A DNA stretch of 64,000 nucleotides, from NCBI GenBank assembly GCA_956465555.1, contig OY101128.1, forward strand, positions 186,001-250,000, read 5' to 3'. Each line of letters begins with the position of its first letter. Position 1 is the first letter of the stretch. Origin of the DNA: Nitzschia sp. pyKryTriq1. Lineage: Eukaryota; Bacillariophyta; Bacillariophyceae; Bacillariales; Bacillariaceae. The notes under the pieces were generated by a model. It was not told the DNA's origin and ran no database searches. It saw nothing but the letters and a program-made list of their open reading frames with translations. This document shows, in pieces, positions 45,541-53,680 of this stretch. A program made the translations under genes and the position numbers.

Positions 45541-45968
45541 GGAAGTGCTACTGGAGCTCCGTGAGGGGGGGTAGCCAATCTTTATCGAAGTGGTCGACGG
45601 GGAGATGGTCAATCACGAGGGTTTGGTTCCCGGATCCGCCAAAGAACAGCAATCGGAGCAGTCGAAGCGCAGTCGAGCGTGCACCGCGCGAATCGGCGAG
45701 CTGTATTCTTATCCAACTGATGATGTGGGACAGAACACACAAAAATCCGACTTCGACGATGATGGAAGCACATGTTGTCGTCCGTTTTGTGAGTCTCGTC
45801 ATGCAGATCTTTCATCCAAATTTAAATTGAATGGTACTTGGCGATGAAGAAGATGAGGATGCTTGATTTTCGCATGTGTGTGGCTCGTGAGAGATTTTCG
45901 GGCTAACCATTCCTTGAAAGGCAGGATCAAGCCGGAGGCGAGAAACAAGGAATACGCAAGGGACCAAC
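45541..45968. other. Intergenic region between two plus-strand genes
   Basis: 428 bp. Overlapping frames of about 85-97 codons on both strands lack recognisable motifs and are not called. It should contain the promoter of the IST1-EndoG gene. Confidence 0.45.
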
Positions 45969-47625
45969 ATGCCACTGGTTGGCAGTCACCGACGATTTGA
46001 GAAGGAAATACGGCAAAGTAAGCTGGATGAACCTTGGAGTGTTGGGAATTGTCTCTGTCTTTGCGTCTCATCCGTCGTTCCCGTGTGTTCCGTCCGCTGT
46101 GGAGTTAGAATCGAAAGCAGCATGTGACCGCTTGGCCTTGGAAATCGAGCGAACATCACGCACGGCTCAATCAAAAATGGTACTTTTGTCGAAGGAACGG
46201 ACGAACTCCAATACGAGAAACATGAATACTCGAATGTTGGCCATTCAACTCATACAAGATCACAATCGTGTTGATGTCTATCAGCTCCTGCATCAGAGTG
46301 TCCGAACTATCCATGAGAATACAACCAAGCTCACCTCTTTGAAATCGATTCCTTCCGATAAAGACTTGGTATCAGCAATGTCGAACATTATCTTTGGAGC
46401 CCCGCGGCTCGCTCTCTTTGAAGTAGAGGCGTTGGCGAATGTGTTTCGAAGAATGTATGGTGACAAGTTTACCGTGTGGACACGAAAGAACACTGGGGGA
46501 ATGGTCAACGAGCGAGTGGTGACAAAATTGACCAGACCAATCGAAGAGTCTCTCGTCAATCAATATCTGAACGCTATCACTAAACCATCGACTGCTGCTG
46601 GGAAAGCCAAAACACCAGTCGCACCAGCAAATAATACCGGCCGTACCACGCACAATGCGGCCGTTCGAAAGAGCACCCCAGTACTGCCACCCGTACCACC
46701 GAAGTCGTCTAGCCATCCCAACTCGTCCGAACAAATTCAAGAATTTCCTTCTACTTTGTCGGTCGTTTCCATGTCAAAGTTGGCTCCTACGCTTCCGATT
46801 CGGATCTTTCGACCAAACCAAAGACTCGAAATTGCATTTGACGTACGAACCAAGAATCCAGTCTACGTCATGGAGCGATTGGATGGTCTTGCCCGGACGA
46901 AAGCAACCATACGGCACCCCTTCTACGAAGAAGAAGGGCTACCTCCGGAGTACCGATCAAGACTTTGTAGTTTTATCCGAAGTGGATACGATCGTGGACA
47001 CATGGCCCCTGCGGCGAACTTTGGAGCCGAGTCTGTCCGAGATACCTTCAATCTTTGCAACGTGTCGCCTCAAGATCAAGCCATGAATCGTTCCACTTGG
47101 GTGAAACTGGAAAATTGGTGCCGAAAAGTAGCAGAACGAGAGTTGCAGTCTCCAAAAGCGATCGACAGCCAATCCGTCCATATTGTCACCGGCCCGGTAT
47201 GGCTGCCGACGATCGCCCCAGCCACCACCACGACCCAAAGCGGTCAACTGCACTTGTTTGAATACGCGGCTATTGGAACAGGAGACTCGATTGTCCATGT
47301 GCCCACGCATTTCTTCAAAATCATGGTCGTGTCCGACGACAAGAGAAGACAAATTCGAAAGTTTGCCTGCTTTTTGGTGCCAAACTTGAAACAACAGACC
47401 GGCGCCTCATTGGAAGAGTACGTTGTACACTGGGATAGATTGGAGGCGGTTACGGGATTGCAATTCTTTCCCCATCTTGCGACTTCGGAGTGGAAGGTGG
47501 ATGCTAGAAAAGTGACGGCTTCTTTGATTTCGAGCAGAAACGTGGCTACGACGCCTCGCCGCCGCAAGCCAAACGAACATGCCGTCGTATCTCTGTCGAC
47601 ACAGCTAGAACATTTGCGAATTTAG
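45969..47625 (+). CDS. IST1-like domain fused to an EndoG-type DNA/RNA nuclease
   Basis: Preferred model: 45969-46017 and 46109-47625 (91-nt GTAAGC...TTAG intron with a pyrimidine-rich 3' end), 521 residues in frame. Exon 1 gives MPLVGSHRRFEKEIRQ. Residues of about 7-165 fit the ESCRT-III-like IST1 domain: a basic first helix, LVSAMSNIIFGAPRLALFEV, ALANVFRRMYGDKFTVW, and NERVVTKLTRPIEESLVNQY. After a Pro/Ser/Thr linker comes a DNA/RNA non-specific endonuclease domain with GYDRGHMAPAANF (catalytic His314), FNLCNVSPQDQAMNRSTW (metal-binding Asn343), IVTGPVWLP and HFFKIMV. IST1 binds ESCRT-III and MIT-domain partners at membranes; EndoG-type enzymes cleave DNA and RNA. Alternative: no splicing and a start at 46027, giving a signal-peptide-like MNLGVLGIVSVFASH. 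The nuclease call is firm, the IST1 call good. Confidence 0.85.
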
Positions 47626-47730
47626 ACGGTGGGTACGTCCGAACTATACTCGTACTAGAATCATTTTTATCTATGTACCTACTACTATCTGGTTGTAACG
47701 CGTCGAAGAAGTGGTCTCATCGCATTCGCA

Positions 47731-47795
47731 GCGTTCATCTTTCATGGAACCAAAGCCCAAAGGCGAATCCATTGGTTCTCAGTCATTCACGAAGC
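47731..47795 (-). promoter_or_regulatory. Candidate SECIS element of the selenoprotein U gene
   Basis: On the minus strand, about 80 nt after the stop codon, a 65-nt segment folds by eye as follows: helix I GCTTC with GAA-c-GC, an internal loop, the core ATGA (47786-47783) opposite TGAA (TGA at 47744-47742), helix II with TG-a-GAACC against GGTTC-CA, unpaired AA, then a pyrimidine-containing apical loop. The order of parts fits a eukaryotic SECIS. Helix II is shorter than usual, so this is a candidate only. A SECIS is required somewhere in this 3' flank if the in-frame TGA is read as selenocysteine. Confidence 0.4.
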
Positions 47796-47874
47796 TAACA
47801 TTTGACGAGCGAGCGCCCCCAAACCACATGCTGCAGATTGGAGCTTTTCTTTTCATTAGTATTGCGCTATTGCG

Positions 47875-48490
47875 CTATTTTACCACCACCTCTTGTTCTT
47901 CTTGGGAGCGTCGAACCGCTTCCAAAGCCTTGACAATATCTTGAACGGGTAAATCGACACCCATCTCTTCTTTGTACGCATATCGGGGCTTGCCCATGGC
48001 ATCAAAGATAATCAACCCTCCCTGGACGACTCCTTCGCCTTTTCCATTCCACTTGATTCCCTTGCTTGTCACTCGTCTCCATGCACCATCCAAGAAACTC
48101 GTCAGCAACGTAAACAGTGATGGTAGCCCCGATGCCTTGCGATCTCCAAGCGCTTGGTACAAGGAGTAGGATTTGTCGCAATAGAGAGGATACTTTCCAT
48201 AGTAAGTATTCGAAAACTCTGCCAATCCCTCGTCGTCAATTCCTGTTTCCTTGACAACTCCAAACAGTTCAAAGCCCAAAAGACCCGCACGACTATCCCC
48301 ATACAATGCCGCGAGCACTGACAATGTCAAGGCTTGCTCGCGGCATAAAAATCATCCGGGACGTCGCACCACCAAACATATACTCCCATATTTATTTCCA
48401 CCACTATGTCTTTGCACCATTTCTCGACTCCGCAACACATCAATTTCGTGCACCGAGCTCTCGTCGATTCGAAGCTCCACCATCTAACGA

Positions 48491-48522
<32 letters not shown>

Positions 48523-48861
48523 GCAACAATAAGCAAGAGCATTAGGATGACAAAAGTTTGTTGGATATGGATTTGTTGACACGCCCAACATTCATCTAGG
48601 ATAGTATAGTATAGTATTCGTACGTACCGCAGCATCCTTCCAAGAGGCCGATAATTTCAAGGTTTCGTCCAGTTCCATGCTGGGGGGCACTTGGACTGGA
48701 ACATTTGGATCCACCAACACCAACGATTTTTTCATTTGTTCTCTCACAGATTTTATCACTTCTTTCGGATAGATTCGTGCATGACAGGTCCCGCCACCGT
48801 CCCCAGCACCACAGGCATTGCTGCTGCTGCTGGTGGTGGTGGTGGATGCCGTCGCTGCCAT
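47875..48861 (-). CDS. SELENOU: Selenoprotein U / peroxiredoxin-like 2 (PRXL2) with in-frame TGA (Sec)
   Basis: Model: exon 1 48861-48628, intron 48627-48484 (144 nt, GTACGT...TTAG), exon 2 48483-47875; 280 residues. In exon 2, TGA at 48354-48352 is followed in frame by TTT TTA TGC, giving VVRRPG-U-FLCREQALTLS: the UxxC redox site of the SelU/PRXL2 thioredoxin-like family, with U at about 122. Downstream the frame runs without a break and matches the family: GLLGFELFGVVKETGIDDEG, SLYQALGDRK, KGIKWNGKGEGVVQGGLIIF. Homologues have Cys or Sec at this spot. Protein is conserved on both sides of the TGA, which argues for recoding rather than decay. Likely a thiol oxidoreductase; no targeting signal is clear. 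The polypyrimidine tract of the intron is a CTTT microsatellite. The gene converges with the IST1-EndoG gene, 249 bp apart. Confidence 0.9.
48489..48520. repeat. (GAAA)8 microsatellite forming an intron pyrimidine tract
   Basis: Eight perfect GAAA units. On the coding (minus) strand they read (TTTC)8 directly before the 3' splice site of the selenoprotein U intron. Confidence 0.95.
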
Positions 48862-50611
48862 ACTAGCTAGTTCGTAGTAGTACGAGTATAATAGTGTTGA
48901 AGGTCTGACTCTGACTGAAGCCGATGTCACGCACCAAGTGCCGAGGACGACGCAGGATGATGATGATGATTCTTCTTCTTCCTCGTAGTCGACTGACTTC
49001 TACCGGTATAGAGTATAGCTTGTTGTTGTGGCCAGATCACAGACTGATGCGACGACGAAGAAAATCTTTGCTCCCAATAACAACGAGAACAAGGATGTAC
49101 TCGTACAGTGCCGGTACAATGTCAAAGGGTCCACTTCTACTATACTACTGTGCAGTACCTGTTACGTGCTTGCTGCTACGAGTACGTTTATACCAGGCAC
49201 TACTTGTACTGTACGTAATAATACATACCGGTACGTGAATATACAATACCGGTAGAGCTGATGATGATGATGATGATGATGATGTGTCGCCGATCCGCCA
49301 TTGTCGACCCGCAGCGATGCATGAAAAAAGATCGCTCTCTGATGCTCTCTGCACGACAAAATCAACCTGCACGACAAAATCAACCTGCGCGAAGAGGAGT
49401 CGTCGTCGTCGCGTCGTCGTCTCGCGTCAAGCTGAACGTGAAAACCGGAAAAAACAACAATCCATTTGCATTCATGTCATGCTACTAGTAGGTGTCGAGT
49501 GGCTCTACATCATCAGCGACTATTGTCTTGCATTGTCTAGCAGTTTGTCCTGTAGATCGTCCGTAGAAACTGTACTAGTTCCGGTGCGTCCAGTTGGACA
49601 TCTCGAAATGCGGCAACCCGACGTCGGCGGGCGAGGCATGTTGAAGAGGGACTTCGATCGGAGGAGTCCAACACCGAGCGAAGGACAGACGCTGTTGATT
49701 CGATCAACGACGATTCGCTCGCAGGCGAACGTCCATGACTGACATGGATCTTGGATCTTGCAATGTCCATTGGGATCATTGACAACCTTGAGAATGGGGG
49801 GGGAGGGGGGGTGGGGGGATTTCGCGCACATTCATTTTGTCGTGTTTCCCACGTCTTGCTGTACGTGTGATGCCCTACCAGGAATCATTCCGACATTGCG
49901 AGCGAGAACTGAATTTATGACTATGTGTGTGAAGAAAAATAGGTGTAAAGGGGAAGAAGTCTGCTGTTCCGCACCGCCGACTATTTTGCTGCAAGAAACA
50001 AATATAGCTACTCTTACTTCTTTTTAACTCCCGCCCACCCGCCCACTCTAGGGGGGATATTGTGTCAGGCGAGCTTCTTGATGGATTCGGCAAAGGAGCG
50101 GCGAATTCGCCAAACCTACGAAGAATCTGCCAGGAGGCAAGTCTACCAACTTCCCTCGGTGGCCTGCGTGGGCATGAGGACCTATACTCTAGCCACCAAT
50201 AGCAACAATCGTACCTCTCCTATCTATCTAACCACGCAGGGTGACGTGTACTTCCTATTACTATATGTATGTGTGTCACAAATAAATAATAATGACGCGG
50301 GAAAGACGAAGCAGCAGCGCGCGCGCGCTGCTGGCTGGATGCGCCATCGATCGTACCAAAAATAATCTATCGGAGTGGAAATGAAATCATATGATAGATC
50401 TACATGCACATAGTATTTGTATATTGACATTTCGAGCCAGCCAATCTCAATCCGAGAGGATGATTGATTGATTGATGAATGATTATGATGATTGATGATG
50501 ATTCCAATCTCTCTTTCTTCCACATCCATCGATCATCTTATATTACACCGATCAAACAAATACGTACCACAACACAACACAACACAACACAACACTCCTC
50601 TTCATAATATC
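48862..50611. other. Gene-free divergent intergenic region
   Basis: About 1.75 kb between selenoprotein U (-) and the kexin-like gene (+). It holds two ACCGGTA words near 49230-49255, (GAT)n at 49259-49282, an exact 18-bp tandem duplication GCACGACAAAATCAACCT at 49351-49386, a G-rich run near 49795-49820 and (ACAAC)n near 50568-50595. Frames of up to 152 codons on either strand are Arg/Ser-rich without motifs and are not called. Confidence 0.5.
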
Positions 50612-53600
50612 ATGATGAGAACGATGATGATGATGATGATGATGATGTCGACACTGCTGTTGCTACTGCCACTTGGTAGAAACCCAACCGTCCAAGCCGA
50701 GGCCGCCGATGGAGGACAAGTTCCAGCATCCTCCTCCTCCTCCTCGTCGTCGTCCTCTTCTTCTTCCCAGCACCTCCGTCGTCAAATGCAGCAATTCCCG
50801 GATTTCTCTTGTGACGTGTACAAAGACTTTTGTCCCACGAGGTTCAATGGAGTGTGCGAACGAAATATCGATAGTAGCGGGTTCGTGGGTGGTTCCGCGA
50901 ATACTTCTACGTCTAGTTCCACTTCTAGTTCCACGTCTACTACTTCTACCGTCGAGGTTTCTTCGCTTTGTCTTTCGGAAGGCAGCAGCGATTGCTTTGA
51001 TTGCGATGAATGTCAACGTCAATTCCATGCCGATTGTCAAGGATGTATTGCGCACAATTGTGTCTGGTGTCCTGGCGATGCCACGTGTTTCAATTCCGAT
51101 CAATACATCCTACTGGGCAGCAATCGACAAACCACCTGTACGACGCCGGGCGACTTTCAAAGCACGTGCAGCAGCAGCAGCAGCAGCAGTAGTAACAATA
51201 ACGTGTTTGATGATGTCTTGTACCAAGCCCAATCGTGGGTCTATGATCTCATTCAGTTGCCCAACGTCTGGAAAACTTACCAGGGACAAGGAATACGTGT
51301 CCGAATCAATGACAATGGAGTCGATGTCAATCATGCCGAATTCAGTGGACGGATCGATTACGATGCCAATTGCGACAATTACTTGCCCTTTGATACTACC
51401 GCCACCACCACCAACAACAATAACAATAACAATAATAATCAAGTAAATGATGAGGTGGGTGCGGGACATGGCACGGCCGTGGCCGGAATTGTCGGAGCGG
51501 CCGCCAACAATGGATTGTGCAGTGTCGGGATTGCTCCCCAAGTCACCCTTTCGAGCTGCAACATTTTTGACACCACCACCAGTAACAGCAACAGCAATAC
51601 TGGCGGTAATGCGAATAATAATAATAATATTCGATACCAATTCTTGGATCCATCCCAAATCGATCTGTACGACATTGCCCAAAATTCTTTTGGTGAAAAT
51701 GCCTGTGCACCACGAGAAGATCTAATATTGGGAAGAAGAAGGGAAGCAAGAAACTTGCAAGAAACGTGTCCCTTTACTTCATTTGCCAGTCAACAGCAAC
51801 AGCAGCAGCAGCAGCAAGGAGACATTGTCAATCTTCCCTTTCCGTGTGACTATTGCGACTTTACTACTTCATCATCATCTACCTCTACGTTTTCGCAATT
51901 ATGTCAACAAGCCATTGTCTTGCATTGTCGAATCTATTGGGAACAAGATCAAAATGGTTGTTTGGAATTTTTGGATGTATTGGTACAAGATGGAACGTGC
52001 GAATATTCTTCCAGTTTACCGGCCGCCATTCGACAAGGCATGACGACGGCCATTACGGAGGGACGTCAAGGCAGGGGGATTATTTTTGTAGCCGCGGCAG
52101 GAAATACCTACAAATCGGGAGGGGATACAAATTTGGGAGATGGATGGTCCAATTCGAGATTTGTCATTTCGGTGGGAGCGGTGGGAAAAGATGGAAGACA
52201 TGCGAGCTATTCGGTTCCAGGAGCCTCGCTCTTTGTGGCGGCACCGGGAGGAGATCATTCCAGTATTGCGAATCATGTCACTGTCGGTCTTTCTACATCT
52301 TCGAGCAATGCAGTATGTCGGGATGCCGGAGTAGGAACTTCGTTTGCCTGTCCGGTCGTTTCGGGAGTCGTCGCTTTAATGTTGCAAGCCAATCCGGACC
52401 TGACCTGGCGGGATGTCCAAGAGATTGTAGCCACCACGTCACAACGTGTCGATGTGACGGATGATACAGATGTTGACGACCGTATTATTAGCACGGCTAT
52501 TGTCAATGGAGCCGGCATTTGGCATTCCAACTATTATGGATTTGGAATTATCAACGCCGAAGCTGCCGTGCAAGCGGCCGAAACATGGACCTTGCTCGGA
52601 TCGGAACAAATGCTGGTGGTCGAGTCGGGTCGCATCGATTTGCCCTTGGTGGATGATCCTACAGTGGTAACCTCTTCCACTCTTTCCTTTTCCTCAAGTG
52701 CTGGTGGTGGTGGTGGTGGTGGGGACAATAATGATGCTTCTTCATCGTCGTCGTCGTTTCGAATTCAAAGTGTCCAAGTCTTGTTGGATTTGGAGCATTA
52801 TAGTCGAGGACATTTACAAATCGTCTTGACGAGTCCTCAAGGGACAAGATCCATTTTGCATCCCGGTCAACGTCCCGAAAACTATCAAATGGATATCAGT
52901 GCACGATGGAAGTTTTTGACTCTGAAATCGTGGGGAGAGAATCCATATGGTGATAGTGGAAGTGGAAGTGGCGATTGGACATTGGAGCTCACCGATTTGA
53001 CACCCGGGGAAGTATCGATGGCGTGTGTCGATGCAGATTGGATTGTTGACCAATCCTCTGTATCAGCCGTGTTGGATCCAGTCGATTGTCGATTCTTGGA
53101 ACAAGTCGGTGCTTGTATCGATGGGGAAATCAATCCATTGAATTTGGTTAGTGCAAATGATCTGGATGTATTGCTGAATCAGTTTGAAAACAGTGATGGA
53201 CTCCGGGCGACCGACGCGTGTTGTGCGTGTGGTGGAGCGGGAGTGAGTCGGCAAGATGTGACGGATCAACTCCGACAATGGACACTGGTCGTCTACGGAT
53301 ATTACTCTGATGGTCTTAGTGGTGGTGCGAACCAAGGAATGGGCGATGGACCAGCAACCTCGGCTCCGACAGTATCATCAGCAACGACAACCATCGAGCC
53401 CACAACATCATCTCCTACATTGCTGGTGGAAGAATCATCCGGTGTAACCGAGAGTCCTTCTCAATCCGATAATTTTTCCCCATCCATCTCGACTGACGTC
53501 CCAGCAGAGCAGGAGGGCAACGATGATCCTAACCAGCAGTCTCCTACCGATGATGGTTCCAACTCGTCTCCTGGCTTTGTCTTTCCTACGAGTGCATCAT

Positions 53601-53680
53601 CGCCGACGCATAACGGCGCAGTGGGTGTCATGATCGTCCTCGGCATTACCGTCGTCATGACGAGTCGTCTCTGTTGGTGA
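50612..53680 (+). CDS. Kexin-type subtilisin-like protease with P domain
   Basis: A 1022-residue membrane or secreted protease. The chosen start opens a signal peptide (Met run, then STLLLLLPLG); the frame extends 40 codons upstream. A cysteine-rich N-terminal region includes a PSI-like segment, CQGCIAHNCVWCPGDATC. The S8 catalytic residues are Asp234 (RINDNGVDVNHAEF), His286 (GAGHGTAVAGIVGA), oxyanion Asn498 (FVAAAGNTY) and Ser577 (VGTSFACPVVSGVVAL). A P/Homo-B-like domain follows (VLLDLEHYSRGHLQIVLTSP, then SWGENPYGDSGSG and DWTLELTDL). Then come a six-cysteine ShK-like segment ending CCACGG, a Ser/Thr/Pro stalk and a final hydrophobic helix. Asn runs and a Gln run sit between the catalytic blocks. 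Kexins cleave proproteins after basic residues in the late secretory pathway. A classic prodomain is not obvious. Confidence 0.85.
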   Translation: MMRTMMMMMMMMSTLLLLLPLGRNPTVQAEAADGGQVPASSSSSSSSSSSSSQHLRRQMQQFPDFSCDVYKDFCPTRFNGVCERNIDSSGFVGGSANTSTSSSTSSSTSTTSTVEVSSLCLSEGSSDCFDCDECQRQFHADCQGCIAHNCVWCPGDATCFNSDQYILLGSNRQTTCTTPGDFQSTCSSSSSSSSNNNVFDDVLYQAQSWVYDLIQLPNVWKTYQGQGIRVRINDNGVDVNHAEFSGRIDYDANCDNYLPFDTTATTTNNNNNNNNNQVNDEVGAGHGTAVAGIVGAAANNGLCSVGIAPQVTLSSCNIFDTTTSNSNSNTGGNANNNNNIRYQFLDPSQIDLYDIAQNSFGENACAPREDLILGRRREARNLQETCPFTSFASQQQQQQQQQGDIVNLPFPCDYCDFTTSSSSTSTFSQLCQQAIVLHCRIYWEQDQNGCLEFLDVLVQDGTCEYSSSLPAAIRQGMTTAITEGRQGRGIIFVAAAGNTYKSGGDTNLGDGWSNSRFVISVGAVGKDGRHASYSVPGASLFVAAPGGDHSSIANHVTVGLSTSSSNAVCRDAGVGTSFACPVVSGVVALMLQANPDLTWRDVQEIVATTSQRVDVTDDTDVDDRIISTAIVNGAGIWHSNYYGFGIINAEAAVQAAETWTLLGSEQMLVVESGRIDLPLVDDPTVVTSSTLSFSSSAGGGGGGGDNNDASSSSSSFRIQSVQVLLDLEHYSRGHLQIVLTSPQGTRSILHPGQRPENYQMDISARWKFLTLKSWGENPYGDSGSGSGDWTLELTDLTPGEVSMACVDADWIVDQSSVSAVLDPVDCRFLEQVGACIDGEINPLNLVSANDLDVLLNQFENSDGLRATDACCACGGAGVSRQDVTDQLRQWTLVVYGYYSDGLSGGANQGMGDGPATSAPTVSSATTTIEPTTSSPTLLVEESSGVTESPSQSDNFSPSISTDVPAEQEGNDDPNQQSPTDDGSNSSPGFVFPTSASSPTHNGAVGVMIVLGITVVMTSRLCW

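Follow-up and report, generated by a model that had tools for sequence, protein, structure and literature searches.

The window analysed here, a stretch of 64,000 nucleotides, covers bases 186001-250000 of contig C14 in an assembly of 40.65 Mb and 20 contigs. Its minus strand carries a SelU/PRXL2 gene which, together with a likely 3' element, extends from 48861 to about 47716. Exon 1 (48861-48628) starts at the ATG 48861-48859 and has 78 codons (MAATAST...WKDAA, with the end reading ...SASWKDAA). It is followed by a 144-base GT...AG intron (48627-48484, GTACGT...CGTTAG) with a (TTTC)n run close to its 3' end. Exon 2 (48483-47875) encodes the SelU/PRXL2 (AhpC-TSA_2) domain in 202 codons plus the TAG stop at 47877-47875 and reads MVELRI...YGSICLVVRRPG-TGA-FLCREQALTLSVLAALYGD...VVVK-TAG. 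The sole internal stop in its translation is the TGA at 48354-48352, located between RRPG and FLCREQ, from which 158 codons are open to the TAG; a [U/C]-x-x-C redox site is present as RRPG-U-F-L-C. A preliminary description of this DNA had proposed an in-frame TGA within RRPG-TGA-FLC and a two-exon product of 280 residues, Sec included, and both were recovered by translation across the intron, with one internal TGA. The span that it had marked, 48282-48483, does lie inside the gene, but it takes in merely the 5' part of exon 2. A match to mir-324 on the plus strand (48781-48853, E 0.0062; 26.3 bits, where the gathering score is 70) overlies the Ser/Thr-coding repeats of exon 1 and was rejected as a chance hit.

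The AhpC-TSA_2 domain (PF13911) of the predicted protein scored 51.4 bits, above the curated Pfam cut-off of 27, and the part downstream of the TGA (window 47965-48288) matched the same family by itself, at 1.6e-12. The relative P0002 shows 79% identity in an alignment that crosses the TGA and takes in 98% of the query. Because of the post-TGA Pfam match and the P0002 alignment across the TGA, the reading frame is beyond chance. The best solved relative is 9us9_A, a prostamide/prostaglandin F synthase of the PRXL2 group, which matched residues 22-165 of P0001 at 2.3e-7. An NCBIfam search of the protein returned no family, and no relative was confirmed in the prokaryote genome contigs and viral contigs searched.

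The splice junction could be examined through the relative P0080, a protein of 120 residues from a source contig of 1156 bases, which is near-identical to exon 1 and exon 2 joined together. Its KDAA-MVEL junction is the predicted exon 1/exon 2 join, and its C-terminus, ...VVRRPG, ends at the residue directly before the TGA. An unspliced frame would run from exon 1 into ...AAVRTNTILYYPR and then a stop; thus the P0080 source contig must be without the intron, and it is most likely a transcript. The proposed joining of the exons over 48484-48627 is supported by this intron-less relative with the predicted junction. P0023 from Nitzschia inconspicua has the same exon junction (KDAA-MIEL vs KDAA-MVEL), in a model without the redox site.

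The preliminary description had suggested aligning the product with its relatives and looking for Sec or Cys at one column. In one search, about 5.8 billion proteins were screened and 79 relatives found; each was aligned to the query and read at the Sec column. Cys was found in eight and Trp in six; two (P0050 and P0080) have no residue there, and 63 are similar solely downstream of the column. RRPG is not intact before the Cys in two of the eight Cys rows (P0018 and P0040) and in one of the six Trp rows (P0056), while the second Cys of the site is kept in all 14 relatives having a residue at the Sec column. The Cys rows support the claim that the TGA occupies the position of the first CxxC Cys. 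Gene callers that work with code 4 print TGA as W, and the Trp at this column in six relatives is probably TGA read in that way. Among the 63 downstream-only proteins, 50 themselves start within three residues of the alignment start, and in the remaining 13 that start is preceded by some sequence that is unrelated or spliced differently. P0003, 99% identical to the query, starts only past the Sec site. Such frequent starts just past the site are the expected output of gene callers where a TGA stands, and they agree with the statement of the preliminary description that a standard gene caller would lose the active site. The gene is a clean example of a selenoprotein broken by routine annotation, with the active site missing in 63/79 relatives. 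Those relatives seen with a name are diatoms (Nitzschia, Amphora and one whose name begins Gram...), which is the basis for describing the genome as diatom-like. Three features of a eukaryotic selenoprotein gene are present at this locus: an in-frame UGA, conserved coding sequence flanking it, and relatives with Cys at the equivalent column.

The genome also encodes the machinery for Sec insertion. tRNA-Sec was found at three places above the Rfam cut-off, with the anticodon TCA (ARAGORN). Two of these loci (L007/L008, G000:C4:2830576-2830822) form an identical tandem pair, 161 bases start to start, and the third is on C5. There is one SepSecS gene, detected as exons, and one SPS2 gene with its own TGA within KG-U-ACKIP. 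Four family searches yielded seven further genes with TGA at the Sec site, or eight with SPS2; GPx contributes three of its four genes to this set, SelT and SelM one each. A PF10262 match with three TGA codons (L019) was kept out of the Sec panel, as its read had presumably run past an exon end. AhpC-TSA_2 matched the genome five times (L001-L005), L002 being the window gene. L001 is a second Sec SelU (RRPG-TGA-VLC) and L004 a Cys SelU paralogue (KRPG-Cys-VLC); in the alignments, identity to the window protein is 68/155 residues for L001 and 64/147 for L004. L003 (G000:C6:2576930-2577388) is a Prx-like AhpC-TSA_2 gene reading SLG-TGA-PLCQEF and probably encodes another Sec protein; its SECIS-like stem is its own free optimum fold. 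No SelU-type site was present in the stretch read for L005.

A candidate SECIS stem-loop was found on the minus strand at 47797-47729, starting 78 bases past the true stop and inside the 3' region (47500-47875, minus) that had been named beforehand. With the core forced unpaired, it can fold into a nine-pair helix I with one bulge (UAGCUUCGU/AUGAACGCUG), a GAAUGA/UGAA core (GAAUGA at 47788-47783, 3' GA at 47743-47742) and a short helix II. The stem can be lengthened by an outer helix, CUCGUC/GAUGAG (47809-47804 with 47721-47716). The forced structure is not the optimum of a free fold: unconstrained, the stretch takes another shape that is 1.1 kcal/mol better (-17.9 vs -16.8), pairs across the core and has 4 of 21 pairs in common with the forced one. 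The AA at 47773-47772 stays unpaired solely in the fold where it was forced to, and is paired otherwise. The forced-core energy is the second weakest of the nine Sec genes (weaker than seven of the other eight), and one unrelated site in the window beats it at -18.2. Taken as a whole, the 201-base 3' region shows no gain in stability over shuffled versions of itself (z -0.13). Energy rules give no credit to the non-standard pairs of a SECIS core, and the free-fold result is therefore not decisive. Rfam at permissive thresholds (E up to 10) gave no SECIS row at the gene, its 3' region, or seven sister Sec loci; its silence at SelU says little, since those sister loci are silent as well. The exact SECIS element of the gene remains a prediction. 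The non-optimum fold, together with the meaning of TGA as a stop under the standard code, is what speaks for a decaying gene, in which the TGA would be a true stop and the locus a pseudogene or a 121-residue stub. We regard this as very improbable: the TGA is the only break in 280 codons, the sequence after it is kept in relatives (P0002 at 79% and P0003 at 99% identity), and the homologous site is TGA in L001 and Cys in eight relatives.

Next, the 3' sequences of the Sec genes were compared with each other. A strict scan used an ATGA/GTGA core, a 3' GA, AA or CC in the apical loop and two helices, with those bases forced unpaired. It returned an element in four of eight Sec genes, SelU included, and none in the Cys gene L004. 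Applied to both strands of the window, the scan gave 51 matches, 24 of them with energy at least as good as that of SelU; the SelU site is the sole GAATGA core among the 51, and none of the 24 has one. GAATGA was found no more than 260 bases from the stop in 9/9 Sec genes (eight from the first panel plus SPS2), against a background of 224 in 2550 window stretches of 260 bases. SPS2, with its GAATGA 194 bases from the stop, was examined after the motif had been noticed and is the only fresh case for it. The 3' stretch of L024 begins 138 bases before the stop; counted from the first base of that stop, its GAATGA is 100 bases downstream. The paralogues L001 and L004 share the RRPG/KRPG-[U/C]-VLC type of site with the window gene; L004 differs by its Cys and by the lack of any GAATGA over the 603 bases read from the stop onwards, and it was the sole 3' control, the Cys genes L014, L018 and L005 being left out. 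The GAAUGA core continues with C in six of the nine Sec genes.

A looser fold test (core forced open, a minimum of five pairs in helix II and of four in helix I, reach of 300 bases) was tuned after the strict scan had found 4/8. All nine Sec genes passed it with the first GAATGA of each. Among the GAATGA sites of the window 4/50 passed, one of which is SelU (3/49 for the others), as did 27 of 300 GAATGA sequences planted at random places. The Fisher p value for 9/9 vs 3/49, about 2e-8, is optimistic, because the test was tuned later and the panel that chose the motif included SelU. In the unconstrained folds, the core is wholly free in four of the nine Sec genes (L001, L003, L016 and L020) and not free in five (the window gene, L015, L017, L024 and L025). 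Further GAATGA sites occur in the 3' stretches of L001 (index 414), L003 (71), L020 (369) and L024 (564); the second site of L003 fails the looser test, and the other three lie beyond the 300 bases tested. The second site of L020, about 369 bases past the SelT stop, reads GAATGAC and has a stable hairpin after it (-35.6 kcal/mol for the stretch as folded). The apical parts of the candidate set looked too unlike to align. It is conceivable, though we think it unlikely, that SECIS elements of this lineage have an extended GAAUGA core and a SECIS-binding protein that is more selective for the core than its animal counterpart. If true, this might account for the failure of the public SECIS model to find these elements, and the SelU gene would be one of a set recognisable by its GAAUGA core.

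Taken jointly, the results point to a SelU/PRXL2 gene with two spliced coding exons and SECIS-directed Sec at an in-frame UGA, a reading to which we give a probability of about 0.95. It draws on the computed frame, family, splice junction via P0080, Sec/Cys exchange, tRNA-Sec, SepSecS and SPS2 genes, and common GAAUGA core. The Sec reading of the UGA is supported because Cys occurs at the column in 8/79 relatives, P0080 ends at the TGA, and the Sec machinery is accompanied by eight further TGA genes; the codon is almost certainly read as selenocysteine. The SelU mRNA would be spliced from two coding exons, and a SECIS stem-loop, most likely the predicted one 78 bases past the true stop, would bring selenocysteyl-tRNA (anticodon UCA) to the UGA. 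Sec would then take the place of the first Cys in the CxxC site of a thioredoxin-fold redox enzyme, which may act as a thiol/selenol reductase or a peroxidase-like protein. A sequencing or assembly error in one base of a Cys or Trp codon has hardly any probability left: the TGA is indeed one base away from TGC, TGT and TGG, and six relatives have W, but P0080 (from a different contig and not identical in sequence) ends exactly at RRPG, the 99% identical P0003 starts only past the site, and eight further genes of the genome likewise have TGA at a Sec site. A changed code with TGA read as Trp throughout, for which the same six W rows could be cited, is negligible too, given that the TGA codons of the eight other genes coincide with the Sec positions of known selenoprotein families, the TGA of SelU takes the place of a Cys, the first one of CxxC, a tRNA-Sec with TCA is present, and W is what code 4 gene callers output for TGA.

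Selenocysteine-containing SelU is not new. In extracts of the published surveys, Sec-containing SELENOU is among the four most widely distributed algal selenoproteins, present along with the other three in over half of 36 genomes, and the number of selenoprotein genes in diatoms is given as 20 to 44 (PMC7539508); two SelU genes are listed for Thalassiosira pseudonana, and the mammalian SelU homologues are described as Cys proteins (PMC2375036). Compared by description with these extracts, the SelU of T. pseudonana and other algae is likewise Sec-containing, and no difference of kind from the window gene was found. The comparison differs for animal PRXL2/prostamide-prostaglandin F synthase, where 9us9_A matches but the mammalian homologues carry Cys (PMC2375036). 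Since Sec-SelU is already reported in these sources for diatoms and algae (PMC7539508; PMC2375036), the gene is a further case of a known kind, and it leaves existing knowledge of selenocysteine unchanged. With two Sec SelU genes beside one Cys SelU gene, this diatom-like genome is an additional one in which Sec/Cys exchange can be studied.

Two other frames of the window, both on the plus strand and measured stop to stop, were recorded. The frame at 45907-47625 (572 codons) encodes an IST1 domain (ESCRT regulator, 60.5 bits) and, after it, a DNA/RNA non-specific endonuclease domain (128.8 bits), which is an unusual pairing. The frame at 50492-53680 (1062 codons) encodes a subtilase with a proprotein-convertase P domain and many Ser/Asn runs.
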